Below the pieces are notes generated by a model. The model saw nothing but the letters and a program-made list of their open reading frames with translations, made no database searches and was not told the DNA's origin. This document shows, piece by piece, positions 13,875-29,166 of a DNA stretch of 56,358 bases. This stretch comes from a virus: positions 1 to 56,358 of IMG/VR virus record IMGVR_UViG_3300036770_007473. One strand, 5' to 3'. Every line of letters begins with the position of its first letter. Position 1 is the first letter of the stretch. A program made the translations under genes and the position numbers.

Positions 13875-14899
13875 AGCATTTCCTTCATCTGCTGTGTCAT
13901 TTCATCCACACCACGATAGGCCAATAGATGTTGTCGATTGTGTTCTAAATCTGACCATAGAGTCTGATATACCTGTTGTGGATCTAACGCTAGCAATCGG
14001 CGACATTGATCCATGGCTGCTGCCAATCGTTGATCGAAATCTTCTATCTCATCATAGGATTCGTCGATCACGCTGCCAAAGGTGCGGAATCCCAGATCTC
14101 TCAGTGTGCGAAGAGCACCAGGGAAAGAATGCACTGCCACAAACACTCTGCGTGCCAAAAGAGGTTTGGCAGTTTTTTCTGACATGAATACGCGATCATG
14201 ATGTGTTTCTACCAGCATGGTGTACCAGGTTTGGTCGTAGATCTGCCAGGGCACGAAGCAGCAGAGGTTCGAGGTCTGGGGCCCATTGAATGATACCTGG
14301 TGACCTTCCATGGAATTATGCATGCTGCCGGCGTTGTAGAACATGGGACTCTTGAAGTCGCCGACATTTTCCACCTTATCAGTATCCATGCCTGTGATCC
14401 ATGGAGTGCCTTGTCCGGTGTAGGATATCAGAGTAGCGCTGTCAAGGTCGGGCCTGGATCGTATCAGATCATAGACCTTGGTGCGAGACGATTTCCTGCG
14501 CCCCAGTAAAAGATCAAACTTGAAAACAGGATTTTTTTGCGACCATGGCGCACAGCGATCTGCATGTGCCACATGACTTTCTACTTCTCGACACCAGTCT
14601 AACCAGAACCAATAAGGTCGCACACGGGCATCAGCATGTATGGTACTGTCCCATAGCGTGATACGGGCATCGTCTGGCAAGTGATCTGGTGATCTGCCTT
14701 CGGTGTCGATCAACCAGATCTTTTCTGCTGCCTGCCATGCGGGCATTTTTTGCAAGATGTCAAAGTCCCAATCATAATCAAAGTCTTTGCCGGGCACCGC
14801 CAACTGCTCTGGAGTGCGGAGCCATATTTTCCATAAGAAAATATTTCTTTGATCCAGGCCTAGATCATTGAACAGCCAATGATCATTGGTCCACAACAT
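13871..14899 (-). CDS. Glycosyltransferase-like phage protein (EKT family), copy 1
   Basis: A 342-residue protein. The diagnostic part is about residues 235-280: VFMSEKTAKPLLARRVFVAV then PGALRTLRDLGFRTFGSVID and ESYD. The layout (EKT.KP.....F....PG....L..LGF.TF...IDESYD) resembles fucosyltransferase/exostosin-type glycosyltransferase ends and is shared with 25642-26652 and 50691-51704. The N-terminal half is Trp-rich and variable. Sugar and acceptor unknown. It sits between iscU and iscA, overlapping iscU by 17 bases and iscA by ATGA, an odd place for a glycosyltransferase. Confidence 0.55.
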   Translation of the reverse strand: MLWTNDHWLFNDLGLDQRNIFLWKIWLRTPEQLAVPGKDFDYDWDFDILQKMPAWQAAEKIWLIDTEGRSPDHLPDDARITLWDSTIHADARVRPYWFWLDWCREVESHVAHADRCAPWSQKNPVFKFDLLLGRRKSSRTKVYDLIRSRPDLDSATLISYTGQGTPWITGMDTDKVENVGDFKSPMFYNAGSMHNSMEGHQVSFNGPQTSNLCCFVPWQIYDQTWYTMLVETHHDRVFMSEKTAKPLLARRVFVAVHSFPGALRTLRDLGFRTFGSVIDESYDEIEDFDQRLAAAMDQCRRLLALDPQQVYQTLWSDLEHNRQHLLAYRGVDEMTQQMKEML

Positions 14900-15269
14900 G
14901 TTTTTTCCTGTAATCCTCTATGGCTGCTTTGATCGCATCCTCGGCCAAGATCGAGCAATGGATCTTTACCGGCGGAAGAGCCAGTTCTTCAGCGATTTCA
15001 GTGTTTTTGATAGTCTGTGCTTCGTCAAGAGTCTTGCCCTTAACCCATTCAGTAACCAGCGAACTACTAGCGATCGCGCTACCGCAACCATAAGTTTTGA
15101 AACGAGCATCGGTAATAATGCCATCTTCCACCTTGATCTGTAGTTTCATCACATCACCGCAAGCGGGGGCTCCCACCATGCCCGTACCAATTCCTGGATC
15201 CGTTTTGTCAAAAGAACCCACGTTACGGGGGTGTTCATAATGATCGATGACTTTTTCACTGTACGCCAT
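14883..15269 (-). CDS. iscU: Iron-sulfur cluster assembly scaffold IscU
   Basis: A 128-residue scaffold, full length. Cluster ligands Cys37 (PACGD), Cys62 (YGCGSA) and Cys105 (KIHCS) are present, as are Asp39 and the LPPVK motif (98-102) recognised by the HscA chaperone. The whole sequence is very close in feel to proteobacterial IscU (MAYSEKVIDHYEHPRNVGSF), suggesting recent host origin and an ability to work with the host IscS, HscA and HscB, none of which is encoded here. It has its own sigma70 promoter, a late element and AGGAG before the ATG, so it leads an iscU, glycosyltransferase-like, iscA, nuclease operon. Confidence 0.96.
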   Translation of the reverse strand: MAYSEKVIDHYEHPRNVGSFDKTDPGIGTGMVGAPACGDVMKLQIKVEDGIITDARFKTYGCGSAIASSSLVTEWVKGKTLDEAQTIKNTEIAEELALPPVKIHCSILAEDAIKAAIEDYRKKHVVDQ

Positions 15270-15287: not shown

Positions 15288-15325
15288 ATTTTACTACGGA
15301 ATGCACCATCTGTCAATGGTATTTA
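15288..15325 (-). promoter_or_regulatory. iscU promoter region: sigma70 promoter plus late element
   Basis: TTGACA (15316-15311), a 17-bp spacer and TAAAAT (15293-15288), an almost consensus sigma70 promoter on the minus strand. Just upstream is TTAAATA (15326-15320), a T4-type late element that includes the TAA stop of the radical SAM gene. Both would transcribe iscU, early and late. Confidence 0.75.
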
Positions 15326-16210
15326 ATGTTTTTCTTTTTGTACAAAGTGTAGGCGATGATATCGATCATCAGTTGGGCAGAATTTACACTGCGGTATCAT
15401 GTCATCGATATGTTGGAAAAAGTCGTCACCGCGATCGTCGTACTCATCTATGGCCAAGGGTCGATAGGATCTGATCAGGGCTTTGTCTCCTGGAGAAAGA
15501 TCCAGATCGAACTGATCGTCCAATTCTGAAAAAAGAGCCACGGGACCACAACGATAGATCTTTCCTCGTATGAAATGATAGTTTTTGTGATGCTGGAATG
15601 CACAGATGTCAAATGCCTTTTCTGGAGGACTTTGATGCAGGGTCAGCCTGCCATCGGGCTGGTGGATCAGAGCATTGGGTTTGAACTCGTGCTGATCCCA
15701 GACCTCTACGAAAAACTGTTCATTGTCTGGATCCTGGAATGTTTTGCAACCGCCCAGGCGTGTTTTTGCTGGATCGTCGATCTCGATCACTGGCTTACCA
15801 AAGAATCTGCGTATCTTGTCGTAGATTTCGGATCTCTGATCGAGATCGTGGAGACTCACACCGACCCAGGCGTTGTTGCCCGAAGGATTGTCCGTCATCA
15901 CATGATAGAGATCGGGAATACGATCGATGTAGGTACCATTGGTCAATACCTGCACGCTTTTCTGCCAAACACGATTGAGTCCCAATACCCATTGCTTGAT
16001 ATCCGGATTGAGCAAGGGTTCTCCGCCCATGATCACGATCTGTCCTATGTCTATTTTTTCTGCCCAGGCAGCGATAGTGGATTCGTGATCCTTCCATTTT
16101 TGCCAACCGCGGAAATTGAGATCATTGAATCTGTTGCAACCCTGGCATGCAAGGTTACAGACGTTGGTTATATAGAATTCTAGTTTTGGTAATACCCGGC
16201 GTGTGTCCAC
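15323..16210 (-). CDS. Radical SAM protein with C-terminal cysteine cluster
   Basis: A 295-residue radical SAM enzyme. The [4Fe-4S] motif is Cys18, Cys22, Cys25 (CNLACQGC); MGGEPLL at about 61-67 binds SAM. C-terminal cysteines (CAFQHH near 208, YRCG near 222, CKFC near 276) suggest a SPASM- or twitch-like auxiliary cluster, as in peptide-modifying enzymes. Substrate unknown. It starts with GTG in a TAGTG overlap with the conserved gene upstream, and its stop lies in the late element before iscU. A protein-modifying role on a virion component is possible but only inferred. Confidence 0.88.
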   Translation of the reverse strand: MDTRRVLPKLEFYITNVCNLACQGCNRFNDLNFRGWQKWKDHESTIAAWAEKIDIGQIVIMGGEPLLNPDIKQWVLGLNRVWQKSVQVLTNGTYIDRIPDLYHVMTDNPSGNNAWVGVSLHDLDQRSEIYDKIRRFFGKPVIEIDDPAKTRLGGCKTFQDPDNEQFFVEVWDQHEFKPNALIHQPDGRLTLHQSPPEKAFDICAFQHHKNYHFIRGKIYRCGPVALFSELDDQFDLDLSPGDKALIRSYRPLAIDEYDDRGDDFFQHIDDMIPQCKFCPTDDRYHRLHFVQKEKH

Positions 16211-16554
16211 TATTTGAGAGCACGTTTGGCCATCTGATCCACTGTGAGACGTGCTTGATCCACGGTCATGGTGTCAGTGACAGTTTCGCCGCCACGGAAA
16301 GTGATGGTCACTGCTTCCGGGTCGTTGTCCGGTCCTTCGATATTGGCGATGAGATTGTTCAGCGGCGCTTGCTGGCTAAGAGTTTTGAGTTGCGTGATGG
16401 TGAGAGGTATCTTGAGTTGGTTGGCCAGATTCACAAAAGCCTGACCGGATATGGTTTTTTTGGCATCCACATCATCGGCTCGGCCGCTGAGAAAATCCAC
16501 AAGAGCCATCAAGCGACTTTGATCAACGTCGCCGGCCACTTCTCGGATCAGCAT
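16210..16554 (-). CDS. Conserved phage protein, unknown function
   Basis: A 114-residue acidic protein: MLIREVAGDVDQSRLMALVD, then FVNLANQLKIPLTITQLKTL. Predominantly helical with a beta hairpin (EAVTITFRGGETVTDTM). No catalytic motif. Its start adjoins the stop of the gene upstream and its stop overlaps the radical SAM gene. Context suggests a head or neck-related gene block, but I cannot assign it. Confidence 0.65.
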   Translation of the reverse strand: MLIREVAGDVDQSRLMALVDFLSGRADDVDAKKTISGQAFVNLANQLKIPLTITQLKTLSQQAPLNNLIANIEGPDNDPEAVTITFRGGETVTDTMTVDQARLTVDQMAKRALK

Positions 16555-17378
16555 TATCTGCGCTCTCGTCCCAGGCCTACAGAGACTTCTTCCTCTTCTT
16601 CCTCGTCGTCAGAGGGTAGATTGGCGTCCAGGCTGAGATCCATTTCTTCTTCGCCGGGCACTGGAGCAGTCGCGGTCATATCAGCTTCTGCGCCGGGTAC
16701 CACCGGAGCCTGGCCAGTGAGCACACCCTGGGCAGATTCCATCTCTGTCTTGCCGGCTTGCACTGCTGTCAGCAGGTTGCTGAGCGCGGCGGATGCCTGT
16801 GTCTGGAACTGGGTGGCCTGATCTACTCCCATGTCGTTCCGGATGCTGTTGACCAGGGCCGGGAGATCTTTGAACTGCATCTCGGAAATGTCTTCCATCA
16901 TGCCCTGGATGCGGTCTACCATGTCTTGCGCTGCCAGCACCACTTGAGCAGTTTGGACTTCGCTTTCTTTGACCATGCGCTTGTGTTTGGCGCTTTCTTT
17001 TTTCATGGCAGCGATTGCAGTCACGGTTTTCTGTTCGTCAGGAGTGAGGTTCTGCCCGCTCTGGGCTTTCTTCATTACTGCCTGTGTTTTGGGATCATTG
17101 ACATCCACGGCCATCACGGTCGCTGTGTCCATTTCGCTGAGCCTCCCGATCAAGGCCTGTTCCAGCATGACCAATTTGAGATAGTCAGGATTGCGTTCGC
17201 TGAAATGCCGGCTCACTGAGGATTTGTGCTCTTGTAGCATACCCTTGACACGGCCCAACATGCGGCGTGCCTGGCTCTCGCTCAGGCGGCGGAAATCCAC
17301 ACGATGACCGAAATATCCGTCCAGTGTTTTAGTGATTTTTTCTGTGGGACGCTGGGCGTCCAGTTCGTGCAGTTTCAT
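16554..17378 (-). CDS. Conserved phage protein, probable virion or assembly component
   Basis: A 274-residue protein from ATG 17378 (CGAGG upstream; the longer frame from TTG 17411 is less likely). Long helical region with ESEVQTAQVVLAAQDMVDRI then QGMMEDISEMQFKDLPALVN, a stretch I recognise from T4-like phages of cyanobacteria. The last 60 residues are Pro/Ala-rich, then strongly acidic (DDEEEEEE near 264) and end GRERR. Acidic tails of this kind occur in assembly or core proteins. A late element CTAAATA lies about 24 bases upstream. Not a recognised enzyme. Confidence 0.7.
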   Translation of the reverse strand: MKLHELDAQRPTEKITKTLDGYFGHRVDFRRLSESQARRMLGRVKGMLQEHKSSVSRHFSERNPDYLKLVMLEQALIGRLSEMDTATVMAVDVNDPKTQAVMKKAQSGQNLTPDEQKTVTAIAAMKKESAKHKRMVKESEVQTAQVVLAAQDMVDRIQGMMEDISEMQFKDLPALVNSIRNDMGVDQATQFQTQASAALSNLLTAVQAGKTEMESAQGVLTGQAPVVPGAEADMTATAPVPGEEEMDLSLDANLPSDDEEEEEEVSVGLGRERR

Positions 17379-17832
17379 TATTGAATCCTCGTGTTTGCCA
17401 GTATTTAGCAAGATTTATGCATTTGGTCAGGCGGGAATTTAAATCTTTCAATCGCTGTTTGCGTGTTTCCAGTTTGGCCTCTACAGATTCGGCCAGCCGC
17501 AGATCGCGGATCTTGGAGGCTAGATTGCTGCGTGTTTCGAGATCCGCGATCACCAAAGCACGTTGTTGCTCTAATCGGTGTATGTCATCGGCTAGATGCA
17601 TCTGCCCGAGTTTGTCTGCTATACACCATGCCAGAGCGCTTTTTACCATGGTGAATTCTCCCATGGAGTTACCATATCGCAGCACCGATACCGATCCCGG
17701 ATCGCGTTGTATACGATATCGACCGAACACTATGTAATGCCGGCCGTCGGGTATGATGGCTGTGGATTCCAACGCAGGAAGATCGGGGCGGATTATCTCT
17801 TCCAGTCGAGACAGTGCTTGGGCATTTTTCAT
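17329..17832 (-). CDS. Conserved phage protein, unknown function
   Basis: A 167-residue protein from ATG 17832 (MKNAQALSRLEEIIRPDLPA), coupled to the upstream stop by ATGA. It has a beta-rich N-terminal half (YIVFGRYRIQRDPGSVSVLR) and a long helical, probably coiled-coil second half (LEQQRALVIADLETRSNLAS). The end overlaps the next gene by 50 bases. No function recognised. Confidence 0.65.
   Translation of the reverse strand: MKNAQALSRLEEIIRPDLPALESTAIIPDGRHYIVFGRYRIQRDPGSVSVLRYGNSMGEFTMVKSALAWCIADKLGQMHLADDIHRLEQQRALVIADLETRSNLASKIRDLRLAESVEAKLETRKQRLKDLNSRLTKCINLAKYWQTRGFNNETARTGRPASHRKNH
17402..17408 (-). promoter_or_regulatory. T4-type late promoter element
   Basis: Minus-strand CTAAATA (17408-17402), with the start expected near 17396, upstream of ATG 17378 and its GAGG site. 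It lies within the 3' end of the preceding gene. Confidence 0.5.
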
Positions 17833-19790: not shown

Positions 19791-21635
19791 CTAGGCTAGA
19801 TCTGGATTGTTTCGGGCAAAGTTGGCGGCACTGAATCTCATGCGATCCACAAACTTCATGCCCTGGCCCACATAGCCTTCGTGTCCGGGCTCGTCGTTGA
19901 TCGAAGCCTCAACATCCAGGGCCTGCGTATCTAATTGGCGCACCAAGTCATTCTTGAGGCTAGATATCTCGAGGAATGCCTGGAAAACCGCGGCCACGGC
20001 CTGCTTGTTCTCTGTGGCCCACTCAAATATTCTGGGTGCCTTGGTTGGTGCCTTCTGCTGTGCCCACTCGCCAAATCCGGCCACGAGGTTTGAATAATCC
20101 CGCGCACGCACCCGGCTGTTGAGATACTGCTTGATCAGCTGCGGCAGATCGGTGATTTTACGGGCGCGTAGTTCTGCAGGGTCGAACAGTCGATCTATGG
20201 CTGATCCGTACTGCGTGATGATCTTTTCCACGTCTTGCACCACTTGAGGTTTGAGTTGGATGGTACGAGGTTCGCGCAGGCTGGGATCCAGGATCAAGAG
20301 GCCGGGACTGTCTGCGAGAGCGGCCGCACGTATGGGTGTGGCCGGAGCACCCGGTTCGCTGAGTGCAGTATGGATCACCACCCCTACTTCGCTGTCTGCG
20401 ATCCTTTGGCCCAGCTCCGAATCCACCGGTACTCGATACTTCACGGTATTGGGTGTGAACTCATAGGCACCCGACTGCACGGGAGGTCGATTCACGAACA
20501 GCAGATCACCCTGGATGTAGCCACGGAAATCCTGCGGAACTGCACGTCTCAACATAGGAAACAGTTTTTTGTAGATGGCCACCAGTTCGCCGCGCTCACC
20601 GCCACGCTGTGCCATGATCCGCTCGATCTGTTCGGGTGATGTGGCCAGGCCATCGTATCCACGGGCCAGAAATCCTGACTTGTCTGTGAGCACAAACTCA
20701 CCCGTGGGTTTGCGGCCAAATATGATGGCGGGTTTTCCGTCCCATTTTACAGTGGTGGTCTCGGGTGCCTTGGCCGCTGCCAAGATGCCCTGCAGAGCTT
20801 GACGCAGTCCTCGGCTGCCGGCATCCAAGACCATGTCTTCGGGATGTTCTATGCGCACACCTTCGAATATGGGCTGCATGCCCTGATTCACGATGCGATC
20901 ACGCAGACGCGCCATCCAGTTCACATCGGTGTAGCCAATGCTTTCGTCCAAGGGCGTGCCTGCACGCTGCATGTGATCGCGGAAGTCGGCCAGTTTGTCA
21001 TCTCGCTTGGGGTCGTTCTTCAGAGCAACCAGGATGCGTTCCACGGACGCGAGATCTTCTCGCGTGGCTGCTGGATTCAACAGCATCTTAGCGATGGCAT
21101 CTGGATCATCCGAGATCAAGTCATTGGTCTCACGATTCGCGATGCCCGAAATTTGATTCAGTTTGTAGCCCATGCTCTTGGCCATTGAGTTGATCAGGAT
21201 GTTGCGTGTGGCACCTTTGTACTGAGATTCCGGATCGCCGCGCAGGATCCATTTCGAAAACTCCGGCTTGGGCAGGAACATGAAATCAGTTTGCACGAAT
21301 CCTCGACCTTGCCGTCCGCCGATGGGCGTGAGCAAGTGCACCGCTGTGCCGCTTTTGCGCACCCATTCGCGAGAATCTTGACCGGATCGCTGTATCTGTT
21401 GGGTCAATTGTTGGTAGAACTGTTCTTTGTCTGTCTTGGTGCTGTCTACTGCCAGATCAAGATCACCCGATGTGGCTTTGAGTCCTGTGCTGCCCAGCAT
21501 GTTGTCCAGCAAAGGCAAGCCGGTCAGACCTTCCAGCCACTGAACCGTGGGCTCTATGTCAGCGAGATTGATGCGCTGGGTTTTGGAATTGCCATCAGCA
21601 TCCTTGAATACGTTGCCACCTTCGTTCAGTATCAT
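19791..21635 (-). CDS. Nucleotidyltransferase fused to a ligase-like KxDG domain
   Basis: A 614-residue two-domain protein. Residues about 45-125 match the Pol-beta nucleotidyltransferase signature: LGSTGLKATSGDLDLAVD, giving G-S and D-x-D, then FVQTDFMF with a third Asp. Residues about 285-470 match covalent nucleotidyltransferases of the DNA/RNA ligase family: motif I VKWDGKPAIIFGR (Lys near 297), a motif III-like GYIQGDLLF near 373, motif IV VGVVIH near 418, motif V TIQLKPQ near 459. The C-terminus is helical and ends EGYVGQGMKFVDRMRFSAAN. Similar large proteins occur in marine T4-like phages, as far as I recall unassigned. ATG 21635 is in a TGATG overlap. An RNA or DNA end-repair role is inferred. 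Confidence 0.7.
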   Translation of the reverse strand: MILNEGGNVFKDADGNSKTQRINLADIEPTVQWLEGLTGLPLLDNMLGSTGLKATSGDLDLAVDSTKTDKEQFYQQLTQQIQRSGQDSREWVRKSGTAVHLLTPIGGRQGRGFVQTDFMFLPKPEFSKWILRGDPESQYKGATRNILINSMAKSMGYKLNQISGIANRETNDLISDDPDAIAKMLLNPAATREDLASVERILVALKNDPKRDDKLADFRDHMQRAGTPLDESIGYTDVNWMARLRDRIVNQGMQPIFEGVRIEHPEDMVLDAGSRGLRQALQGILAAAKAPETTTVKWDGKPAIIFGRKPTGEFVLTDKSGFLARGYDGLATSPEQIERIMAQRGGERGELVAIYKKLFPMLRRAVPQDFRGYIQGDLLFVNRPPVQSGAYEFTPNTVKYRVPVDSELGQRIADSEVGVVIHTALSEPGAPATPIRAAALADSPGLLILDPSLREPRTIQLKPQVVQDVEKIITQYGSAIDRLFDPAELRARKITDLPQLIKQYLNSRVRARDYSNLVAGFGEWAQQKAPTKAPRIFEWATENKQAVAAVFQAFLEISSLKNDLVRQLDTQALDVEASINDEPGHEGYVGQGMKFVDRMRFSAANFARNNPDLA

Positions 21636-22327
21636 CACACCCGGAATCCAAAATATTTCAACACAGCATCGGCGATGGGATTGCGTGTGCTGCCGGCCAC
21701 CAAAGGTTGATTGGCATTGAGAGCCGTCAACCCCTTGGCGATGATTCCTGCTTGGGTTTGACTCACACCTGTTCGATCTAACATCTGCTGCACGGCAGCC
21801 GTGGCCTGGCTGAGGTTGGCTGGTGCAGCGGCGGGCTGTTGTGTGTTTTTTGCAGCGGGTTGGTTGGGCGAAGCCTGTGGTTGTTGCACTCGGGCAGTGG
21901 CAGAAAGATCTACCAAGCGATCAAAATACTGCTTGGCCGACGCAGGATCACCACGCATGTAGTAACTGGCCACGGCACGCATGTTCTGTTCTAGGTCATT
22001 CTTGACCGTGAGTGCGTTGTAATCTTGATACCTGTTCAGGAGGTTATTCTGCACATAGTCTCGCAGTTCGTCCTGGAACAGGGCCTGATCTACCTGGCCT
22101 TTCTTGGCAGCACCTATCTGGTACCACTTGGCCACCCAGTTGTCCCAGGCCGCTTTGCTGATCTTTTCCAGGGCGGCATCATTCTGTATGGCTTTTACAC
22201 GCTGGGCCGGTGTCATGGCAGCCATGGCAGGATCTTTGCTGGCTGCGCCAAAACGAGCGGACCATTGGTCTAGTAGACCTTCTTTCAAAGGTTCGCTGTC
22301 GTGCAATGTTATCTCATGTATCTGCAT
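21635..22327 (-). CDS. Putative assembly or virion protein with Pro/Ala/Gln linker
   Basis: A 230-residue protein: MQIHEITLHDSEPLKEGLLD, an N-terminal globular helical part (DQALFQDELRDYVQNNLLNR), a low-complexity linker (about 147-172, Gln/Pro/Ala) and a short C-terminal helical part. The modular layout suggests a structural or scaffolding-type role. It overlaps the nucleotidyltransferase-ligase gene (TGATG) and the upstream gene by 14 bases. No motif for an enzyme. Confidence 0.65.
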   Translation of the reverse strand: MQIHEITLHDSEPLKEGLLDQWSARFGAASKDPAMAAMTPAQRVKAIQNDAALEKISKAAWDNWVAKWYQIGAAKKGQVDQALFQDELRDYVQNNLLNRYQDYNALTVKNDLEQNMRAVASYYMRGDPASAKQYFDRLVDLSATARVQQPQASPNQPAAKNTQQPAAAPANLSQATAAVQQMLDRTGVSQTQAGIIAKGLTALNANQPLVAGSTRNPIADAVLKYFGFRV

Positions 22328-22574
22328 CTGTTCTTCTCACTGTGCGGGTAAATTTTGCCGGATCTTTGGTGCGTATGGCGTTCAGCAGTTTGCGCACTAG
22401 ATTTTCTGCCTGCTCCGGAGCATAGGCGGACTCTATCTGTTCTACCAGCCGCACAGCCGACGCGATCACGTTGGAGGCGCGGCTCTCGATGAAGTATCGC
22501 CGATCCAGGTCAGCATACTTTTCTGTGTGTATTGCGTCTAGTTCTTCTAATATGCTGCGGGTACGTTTTTGCAT
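22314..22574 (-). CDS. Small helical phage protein
   Basis: An 86-residue, strongly helical, charged protein (MQKRTRSILEELDAIHTEKY ... SNVIASAVRLVEQIE). AAAGG precedes the ATG, and a minus-strand AATAAATA at 22594-22601 may be its late promoter. It is the first gene of the minus-strand block and diverges from the plus-strand amidinotransferase gene. No family recognised. Confidence 0.65.
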   Translation of the reverse strand: MQKRTRSILEELDAIHTEKYADLDRRYFIESRASNVIASAVRLVEQIESAYAPEQAENLVRKLLNAIRTKDPAKFTRTVRRTDADT

Positions 22575-28056: not shown

Positions 28057-29166
28057 TCATCCTCGATAGTATGTATCTATGCCGAGTGCTCGACGCCAGT
28101 TTGTGCCACGGCGTTGATCCAGTCTCTCAAAGTGCTCTATCCATCCGTCATCAGATGACGAAGGCAGCAATAATTGTGCGCGGAGATCCTGCAACACCGC
28201 TATGTTTTGCAGTTGCCGAGTGGCCGCTTGTTTGGCTTCAAATGTGAGTTTGCCAACTTCAAATCCATTTGATGGCTGCCAGCAAAAATCGCTGGCATCC
28301 CCTTCTCGATTGGTTGCTAGATTCTCGCAAAACCATCTCCATAAAGATTCCATTTCCAATACATTGTAACAGCCCACTGTGGCATTGATACCCAGCATCA
28401 CGTTGCTGGGTGCTATGTCTTTGATCAGCAAGATATTTTCCTGCACGGAATTCCAAATAGCCGGGTATCTCACATATTCAAACGCGCCTTCCACTGCATC
28501 CAGGCTGAAATACAGTTTAACCAGTCGAGCCTGCGACCACAGGTCCAGAGTTTCCGAATCTGGCATCTGTGTGCCGTTGGTGTTGTAACTGATTGCGACA
28601 TCCATCAGATTGCCCGTGGCACATATCCGTTGCATCACGATTTTGTGATTGTTGTTCAACAGAGGTTCACCACCATTGAAATGCACGCGTCGTAACTGGG
28701 AGAAATCAACATGATCGATCCAGGCATTGTTTTTTTGATCCTGTCTGCCGAGATTTTCAAGATCATCTCTCCTGACACCGGTCTCCTTGGCCCAGGTGCT
28801 GCTCCATCGTGGTCCGCACATCACGCAAGCTAGATTACAAGCCCAGGTCACGTTGATGTCAAGGCTGGTCAACGATGCCGCAAATTGAGAATCACCATAT
28901 TCATCCAGCACGCTGTGTCTCCGGCTGCGACCACCAAGTGCTTCTATCTGCCAGCATTTACCACACTCGGGCGACGGTATAGAGTTTGCTGATGATTGCC
29001 GCATCCTTTGGAAATCAGGGTCTGACAAAAAAGAGAACGATTGCAATGATGAGACATGAGCCTGGGCCTGACAACAAGCGGCCACGTTGATACTGTCTTT
29101 GTTGATTGGTTCAACATAGAGATTGTGGAAAATGTCAGGACAGTGTGTGCTTGAATCTTTTGACAA
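28057..29166 (-). CDS. Radical SAM protein with auxiliary cysteine clusters
   Basis: A 369-residue radical SAM protein of a type known in marine T4-like phages. SAM cluster Cys110, Cys114, Cys117 (CNLACVMC); FNGGEPLL at 164-171. Extra cysteines at 9, 31, 32 (NVAACCQAQA) and 68, 71 (ECGKCW) are likely auxiliary-cluster ligands. The initiation codon is probably TTG 29166, because the conserved N-terminus (CPDIFHNLYVEP) begins at once and no ATG is available; the first 32 bases overlap the primase gene. Substrate unknown. It stands between primase and helicase. Confidence 0.85.
   Translation of the reverse strand: MSKDSSTHCPDIFHNLYVEPINKDSINVAACCQAQAHVSSLQSFSFLSDPDFQRMRQSSANSIPSPECGKCWQIEALGGRSRRHSVLDEYGDSQFAASLTSLDINVTWACNLACVMCGPRWSSTWAKETGVRRDDLENLGRQDQKNNAWIDHVDFSQLRRVHFNGGEPLLNNNHKIVMQRICATGNLMDVAISYNTNGTQMPDSETLDLWSQARLVKLYFSLDAVEGAFEYVRYPAIWNSVQENILLIKDIAPSNVMLGINATVGCYNVLEMESLWRWFCENLATNREGDASDFCWQPSNGFEVGKLTFEAKQAATRQLQNIAVLQDLRAQLLLPSSSDDGWIEHFERLDQRRGTNWRRALGIDTYYRG

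Follow-up and report, generated by a model that had tools for sequence, protein, structure and literature searches.

A polymerase X-like nucleotidyltransferase joined to a ligase-like DUF6267 domain in a large phage: a possible head-packaged repair protein

The window analysed here is the whole of virus record IMGVR_UViG_3300036770_007473 (56,358 nucleotides), which derives from a large tailed phage. It encodes a ribonucleotide reductase, a DnaB-like helicase, a primase, a UvsX-like recombinase and several virion-type genes, a gene set as in T4-like large phages, and there is no tRNA gene in this 56-kb window. On the minus strand, which carries the parts of this gene described below and the two genes upstream of it, positions 21635 to 19791 hold a single intact open reading frame of 614 amino acids that joins a Pol-beta-superfamily (polymerase X-like) nucleotidyltransferase domain (residues 6–225, 20961–21620) to a DUF6267 domain (residues 262–607, 19815–20852) in one uninterrupted frame; relatives carry both halves, and the preliminary description was right to read the gene as a fusion within one polypeptide. 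The ATG at 21635 is a more likely start than the alternative GTG at 21638 (614–615 codons to 19791), and residues are numbered from the ATG unless stated, the GTG numbering adding one. The start overlaps the stop codon of an upstream gene (TGATG; 230 amino acids, 21635–22327), and next in the same gene run is an 86-residue gene (22314–22574) that matches the virion structural protein family phrog_11854 (E 1.7e-12). Elsewhere in the window we note radical SAM genes at 15323–16210 and 28057–29166, and at 14883–15269 an IscU/NifU-like protein, named by eye (MAYSEKVIDHYEHPRNVG...), whose peptide VIDHYE is also found in 20 of 151 related loci.

By its predicted fold, the first half of the protein belongs with polymerase X. 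A whole-protein AlphaFold2 model built on 70 aligned rows has a mean pLDDT of 86, and polymerase X structures account for every one of its top 50 Foldseek matches in the PDB (3upq, Pol lambda, with E 5.6e-4 and prob 1.00), the closest folds of this half being the DNA polymerases lambda, beta, and mu; the suggested Pol-beta-type assignment thus survives by fold. The motifs that had been placed near residues 48–120 are present, with the signature LGSTGLKATSGDLD (LGSTG-x6-DLD) at residues 47–60 (21456–21497) and a third carboxylate, recognised by motif reading and row conservation, within QTDFM at residues 115–119 (21279–21293). G48, D58, D60, and D117 are invariant in all 54 full-length rows, S49 is present in 52 of them, and the model places strands at residues 58–64 and 113–121. 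The protein therefore has the features that define the Pol-beta superfamily, namely hG[GS]...DhD, a third Asp on the following strand, and a palm fold. Profile searches, which had been proposed as a check, identified the C-terminal half as DUF6267/phrog_455 and left the nucleotidyltransferase half unmatched in Pfam, PHROGs, and NCBIfam. Among 15 members searched for polymerase X profiles, one touches DNA_pol_B_thumb, weakly (E 0.13); a family search of the window's own record gave no match to PF01909. Membership of the RlaP family (PF10127) is ruled out, there being no profile match in the protein or in four related contigs (G003, G004, G007, and G009).

The second half is a clear member of Pfam family DUF6267 (PF19782; E 5e-44, 151.6 bits against a cut-off of 27, over residues 263–608 in GTG numbering) and of phrog_455 (E 7e-36), both of which are families without an assigned function; a literature search on DUF6267 found no paper, and an NCBIfam profile search of the protein returned nothing. 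Modelled alone with AlphaFold2 from 58 rows, the domain gives a pLDDT of 90.8 and a pTM of 0.85, and in a Foldseek search of the PDB ranks 1–18 are all ligases or ligation complexes, each a weak match and many of them redundant entries of the same enzymes. They include LigIII (10ye, the best, E 0.06, prob 0.80), LigIV, LigI, an archaeal ligase, AsfvLIG, and RNA-editing ligase 1 (REL1); TM-scores are low, and no PDB match falls below E 0.001. Structure prediction, also proposed earlier, thus upheld the Pol X fold of one half and put ligases in the lead for the KWDG-containing other, the best PDB E-value there being only 0.06. Sequence profiles built from whole, N-terminal, and C-terminal alignments had no meaningful match in the PDB. 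Among the viral models of BFVD, the domain matches PA5oct A0A4Y5JUK8 (E 7e-5) and the Atu_ph07 RNA ligase (E 1e-3, prob 0.95), as well as DUF6267 homologues, some of which are fused to cytidyltransferase-like domains. Because ligases lead the PDB ranks, albeit with weak E-values, and an RNA ligase appears in the BFVD search, we place good but not final confidence in the model-based view that the DUF6267 half is ligase-like and very divergent.

The order of the conserved motifs also bears on this assignment. Of the four ligase motifs listed in the preliminary description, two are in place: motif I, KWDG, at residues 297–300 (20736–20747), with K297 as the predicted adenylylation site, and GYIQGDLL at the motif III position (residues 372–379, 20499–20522), where Asp (D377) replaces the usual Glu in all members. 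The other two were misplaced. The VGVVIH segment taken for motif IV lacks its Glu, and QLKP, taken for motif V, is not conserved; the real motifs lie at the C-terminus as GHEGYV (E586 and G587; 19869–19886) and MKFVDR (K594 and R598; 19842–19859), forming a conserved pair, E586-G587-Y-V589 and K594-x-V-D-R598. An all-helical insert in the predicted secondary structure (AlphaFold2; residues 462–570, 19926–20252) precedes motif IV, and between motifs III and IV lies FTPNTVKY (20436–20459), a PNxxxY motif common to the ligase-like proteins of jumbo phages, as seen in motif and profile alignments. K297, D299, G300, D377, P395, N396, Y400, H422, E586, G587, K594, and R598 are each invariant in 70 of 70 rows, so that motifs I (KxDG), IV (EG), and V (K) of the ligase superfamily are all present and only the motif III Glu is absent. 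DNA ligases have an OB domain after motif V; since only 16 residues follow motif V here, such a C-terminal domain is absent.

Relatives are numerous among viral contigs, with at least 590 in each of two scans, and both halves are present in nearly all of the best 80 of these in each scan; a pattern search of 84,980 bacterial and archaeal genomes found none. Given so many relative-encoding stretches and the invariance of the catalytic residues, the domain motifs lie far beyond chance. By tblastn, 115 phage records were matched, mainly cyanophages, the best 60 of which align over the DUF6267 half only. Stand-alone homologues of the nucleotidyltransferase occur in Phosso (8e-30), Atu_ph07 (4e-25), and PA5oct (7e-16; hmmsearch E-values, computed on a set of only 524 frames), and in Phosso and Atu_ph07 this gene overlaps a ligase-like gene just upstream that carries EKLDGS, PNxxxY, EGVV, and then a K; in PA5oct, EST35_0228 (EGYV...VKIVDK) is a gene of this kind, three genes upstream of the nucleotidyltransferase. 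The ligase-like genes of PA5oct and Phosso are related to each other (E 2e-5), and that of Atu_ph07 has a weak match to Pfam RNA_ligase (E 0.002). A first local hhalign comparison of DUF6267 with two of these proteins was not significant; a global profile alignment with more DUF6267 rows and all three proteins, PA5oct included, gave P 3e-5, and in it motifs I, PNxxxY, IV, and V line up. The reported probability of this alignment is only 47%, and the remote homology that it suggests is for that reason likely rather than proven. The ligase-like assignment made in the preliminary description thus holds by fold, with weak E-values, and also by motif order and this remote profile match.

Several other genes near these loci deserve mention. 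Three related contigs carry a conventional RNA_ligase gene as well, and no kinase or phosphatase neighbour was seen in the clade of the fusion. In HTVC008M (L238 7718–8380) a P-loop kinase (AAA_33, E 1.9e-12) lies two genes after DUF6267 and starts MIPFILKEGLYD, with an [LI]xEG leader; it is possibly an end-healing kinase. Within the cyanophage-type loci L154–L233 the gene just upstream of DUF6267 varies among several unrelated-looking families (for example MASLSVKDLGKRNN..., MSLTIQEIETRL..., and MASLSGKTTAGE...), and this slot looks like one for exchangeable cargo; a suspicion by eye that some of these are PD-(D/E)XK proteins found no Pfam support. Of 76 cyanophage-type DUF6267 loci, 66 also have an HxGH nucleotidyltransferase. 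We also note that PA5oct EST35_0229, which lies between the ligase-like and nucleotidyltransferase genes, shares its N-terminal 107 residues with the S-CAM9 gene upstream of DUF6267 (E 5e-11; L236 3647–4663 and L081 7069–7992).

The fusion protein begins with MILNE (21621–21635), and a cut is predicted after Glu5 (MILNE|GGNVF) in an [LIV]xE|G pattern. All 94 distinct relatives have a Glu (P1) directly before GG, with L (57), I (33), or V (4) at P3, so that 90 read [LI]xE|GG and four VxE, and both P2 and P4 are hypervariable; residues 1–6 of the model have a pLDDT below 50. The stand-alone jumbo-phage nucleotidyltransferases have no leader and start at the GG or SG itself. T4-type prohead proteases cut after Glu and T4 leaders are 10–20 residues long (PMC5694885), and the M..[LIV]xE|GG start, a new observation here, is like the T4-type head-protease and capsid-targeting pattern. 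A T4-type prohead protease (Peptidase_S77) is encoded in three of nine searched fusion contigs (G003, G004, and G007), both contigs longer than 300 kb being among them, as well as in the cyanophage-type contig G010, and a major-capsid candidate with LLE/LRE sites lies beside the protease gene. The leaderless PA5oct nucleotidyltransferase is annotated 'structural protein, ESI-MS/MS', its ligase-like neighbour not being marked as MS-detected. The leader motif, the protease in relatives, and the PA5oct annotation lend independent support to the earlier hint of packaging with the phage, and from these we predict that the phage probably packs the fusion protein into its head and injects it together with its DNA. 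As a separate observation, DLP6 and C48C1 have DUF6267 proteins that stand alone (L237 5953–7188 and L239 5965–7188) and begin MMKFTQFLAESK and MMLDFKNFITEQK, starts that resemble T4 internal-protein leaders.

The upstream overlapping gene has a similar beginning, MQIHEITLHDSEPLKE|GLL. Across relatives its product ranges from 123 to 668 residues and is hypervariable except for the leader, often MQIHEIT...[LIV]xEG. The pattern [LIV]xE[GAS] occurs within residues 5–25 of 47 of 65 upstream proteins, which are related sequences and not independent trials, as against 41 of 741 other genes, and in no more than 12 of the 65 in later stretches. Many of these 41 genes belong to a single, predominant family, that of the virion protein phrog_14154, which is found in the window at 16554–17411 with a likely internal start MKLHELDAQRP... 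and whose relatives read MKLQELAV...KVFESYFG. In T4, internal proteins are diverse and the capsid-targeting sequence alone is conserved (PMC3012670), and to judge from its sequence the upstream gene likely encodes an internal head protein. Two loci (L045 and L055) carry the upstream leader protein and the nucleotidyltransferase–DUF6267 protein in one open frame of 848–852 codons, possibly a polyprotein with an LAE|GG site inside.

Our preferred reading, held tentatively and at somewhat under an even chance, is that the fusion is a two-enzyme fill-and-seal nucleic-acid repair protein, probably packed in the head and injected with the DNA. The MILNE leader would take it into the prohead core, where a T4-type prohead protease would cut after Glu5; after injection, the Pol X-like domain, judging by its fold and catalytic Asp triad, would restore the missing nucleotide or nucleotides at a broken 3′ end, and K297 of the DUF6267 half, judging by its motifs and fold, would take up AMP and pass it to the 5′ phosphate, whereupon the break would be sealed. 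The linkage of nucleotidyltransferase and ligase, whether fused or split, fits such a restoration followed by sealing. We slightly favour RNA over DNA as the substrate, most of all tRNA that host anticodon nucleases of the RloC/PrrC type have cut or trimmed, because of the missing OB domain, the RNA_ligase-like partner in Atu_ph07, and the RlaP precedent (PMC7824862); of these nucleases, RloC excises the wobble nucleotide (PMC2610378). Against the preferred reading stand the motif III Asp, ligase E-values of at least 0.06 and low TM-scores in the PDB, the want of a PDB match by sequence, the lack of any kinase or phosphatase neighbour seen in this clade, and the conventional RNA_ligase gene that three related contigs already carry; against packaging stand the leaderless PA5oct nucleotidyltransferase, its ligase-like neighbour that bears no MS mark, and a leader of five residues compared with 10–20 in T4 (PMC5694885).

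The same enzyme could instead act on DNA, filling short gaps and sealing nicks of the incoming phage genome in repair of the base-excision or end-joining type. Polymerase X is a DNA-repair family, which counts against an RNA substrate; the nucleotidyltransferase half is nearest to DNA polymerases, the PDB matches of the other half are mostly DNA ligases, and delivery together with DNA would suit DNA repair. The one described PolX-ligase fusion, that of the algal virus PgV, does exactly this kind of repair (PMC5537341). Action on DNA is a serious rival, but we consider it rather unlikely, as there is neither an OB domain after motif V nor an extra N-terminal DNA-binding or lyase domain, the jumbo-phage partner genes resemble RNA ligases, and numerous LIG1 entries inflate the PDB counts.

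Less probable still is an injected host-takeover enzyme that AMPylates or otherwise nucleotidylates a host protein, its ligase-like half being a nucleotidyl-lysine transferase that does no sealing. T4 Alt, which ADP-ribosylates RNA polymerase, offers a parallel, and the signs of packaging, the altered motif III, the missing OB domain, and the pairing or fusion of cyanophage DUF6267 with an unrelated HxGH nucleotidyltransferase would all fit; but several phage groups pair the nucleotidyltransferase with ligase-like genes, a recurrence that points to a common task on nucleic acids, and every other catalytic position is kept in both halves. That the protein is a structural or scaffold head protein with inactivated enzyme domains, as its place among virion-type genes and its leader might suggest, is very improbable, since the catalytic residues are invariant (54/54 and 70/70), which would be unexpected in dead domains.

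If the fill-and-seal reading is extended beyond this locus, large phages would pack a self-contained add-then-seal enzyme, made of a Pol X-like nucleotidyltransferase and a previously unrecognised ligase family, DUF6267, to undo damage by host nucleases from the very start of infection, and in cyanophages the same ligase, DUF6267, would be teamed with a different nucleotidyltransferase; this we regard as possible, though doubtful. DUF6267, common in marine T4-like phages and without an assigned function, would gain a testable one. Should the leader act as predicted, the fusion would be an unusual example of a nucleic-acid repair enzyme that a phage injects ready-made, and host defences that cut tRNA or DNA could then be undone ahead of any phage gene expression.

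We regard the fusion as a variant of two known kinds. RlaP is predicted to restore lost nucleotides beside an ATP-dependent RNA ligase in phage RNA repair (PMC7824862), likewise linking a Pol-beta nucleotidyltransferase to an RNA ligase; the fusion, however, has no RlaP match and is one protein with a ligase-like DUF6267 half and a head-type leader. The PolX-ligase fusion of Phaeocystis globosa virus repairs DNA gaps (PMC5537341), but belongs to a eukaryotic virus, has lyase activity, and uses an NAD+-dependent DNA ligase, whereas the sequence of the phage fusion shows no detectable similarity to known DNA ligases. The DUF6267/phrog_455 proteins of T4-like cyanophages share its second domain, without a Pol X-like half, and adjoin or are fused to an HxGH cytidylyltransferase-like protein. 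Like the fusion, Alt and the internal head proteins of T4 start with a short peptide ending in [LI]xE, which in T4 is cut by the prohead protease, the proteins being delivered with the DNA; their leaders are longer than the five residues predicted to be cut here, and the enzymes are unrelated to Alt. Although encoded as separate genes and lacking a leader, the nucleotidyltransferases of Phosso, Atu_ph07, and PA5oct are homologous to that of the fusion, each with a ligase-like gene nearby.
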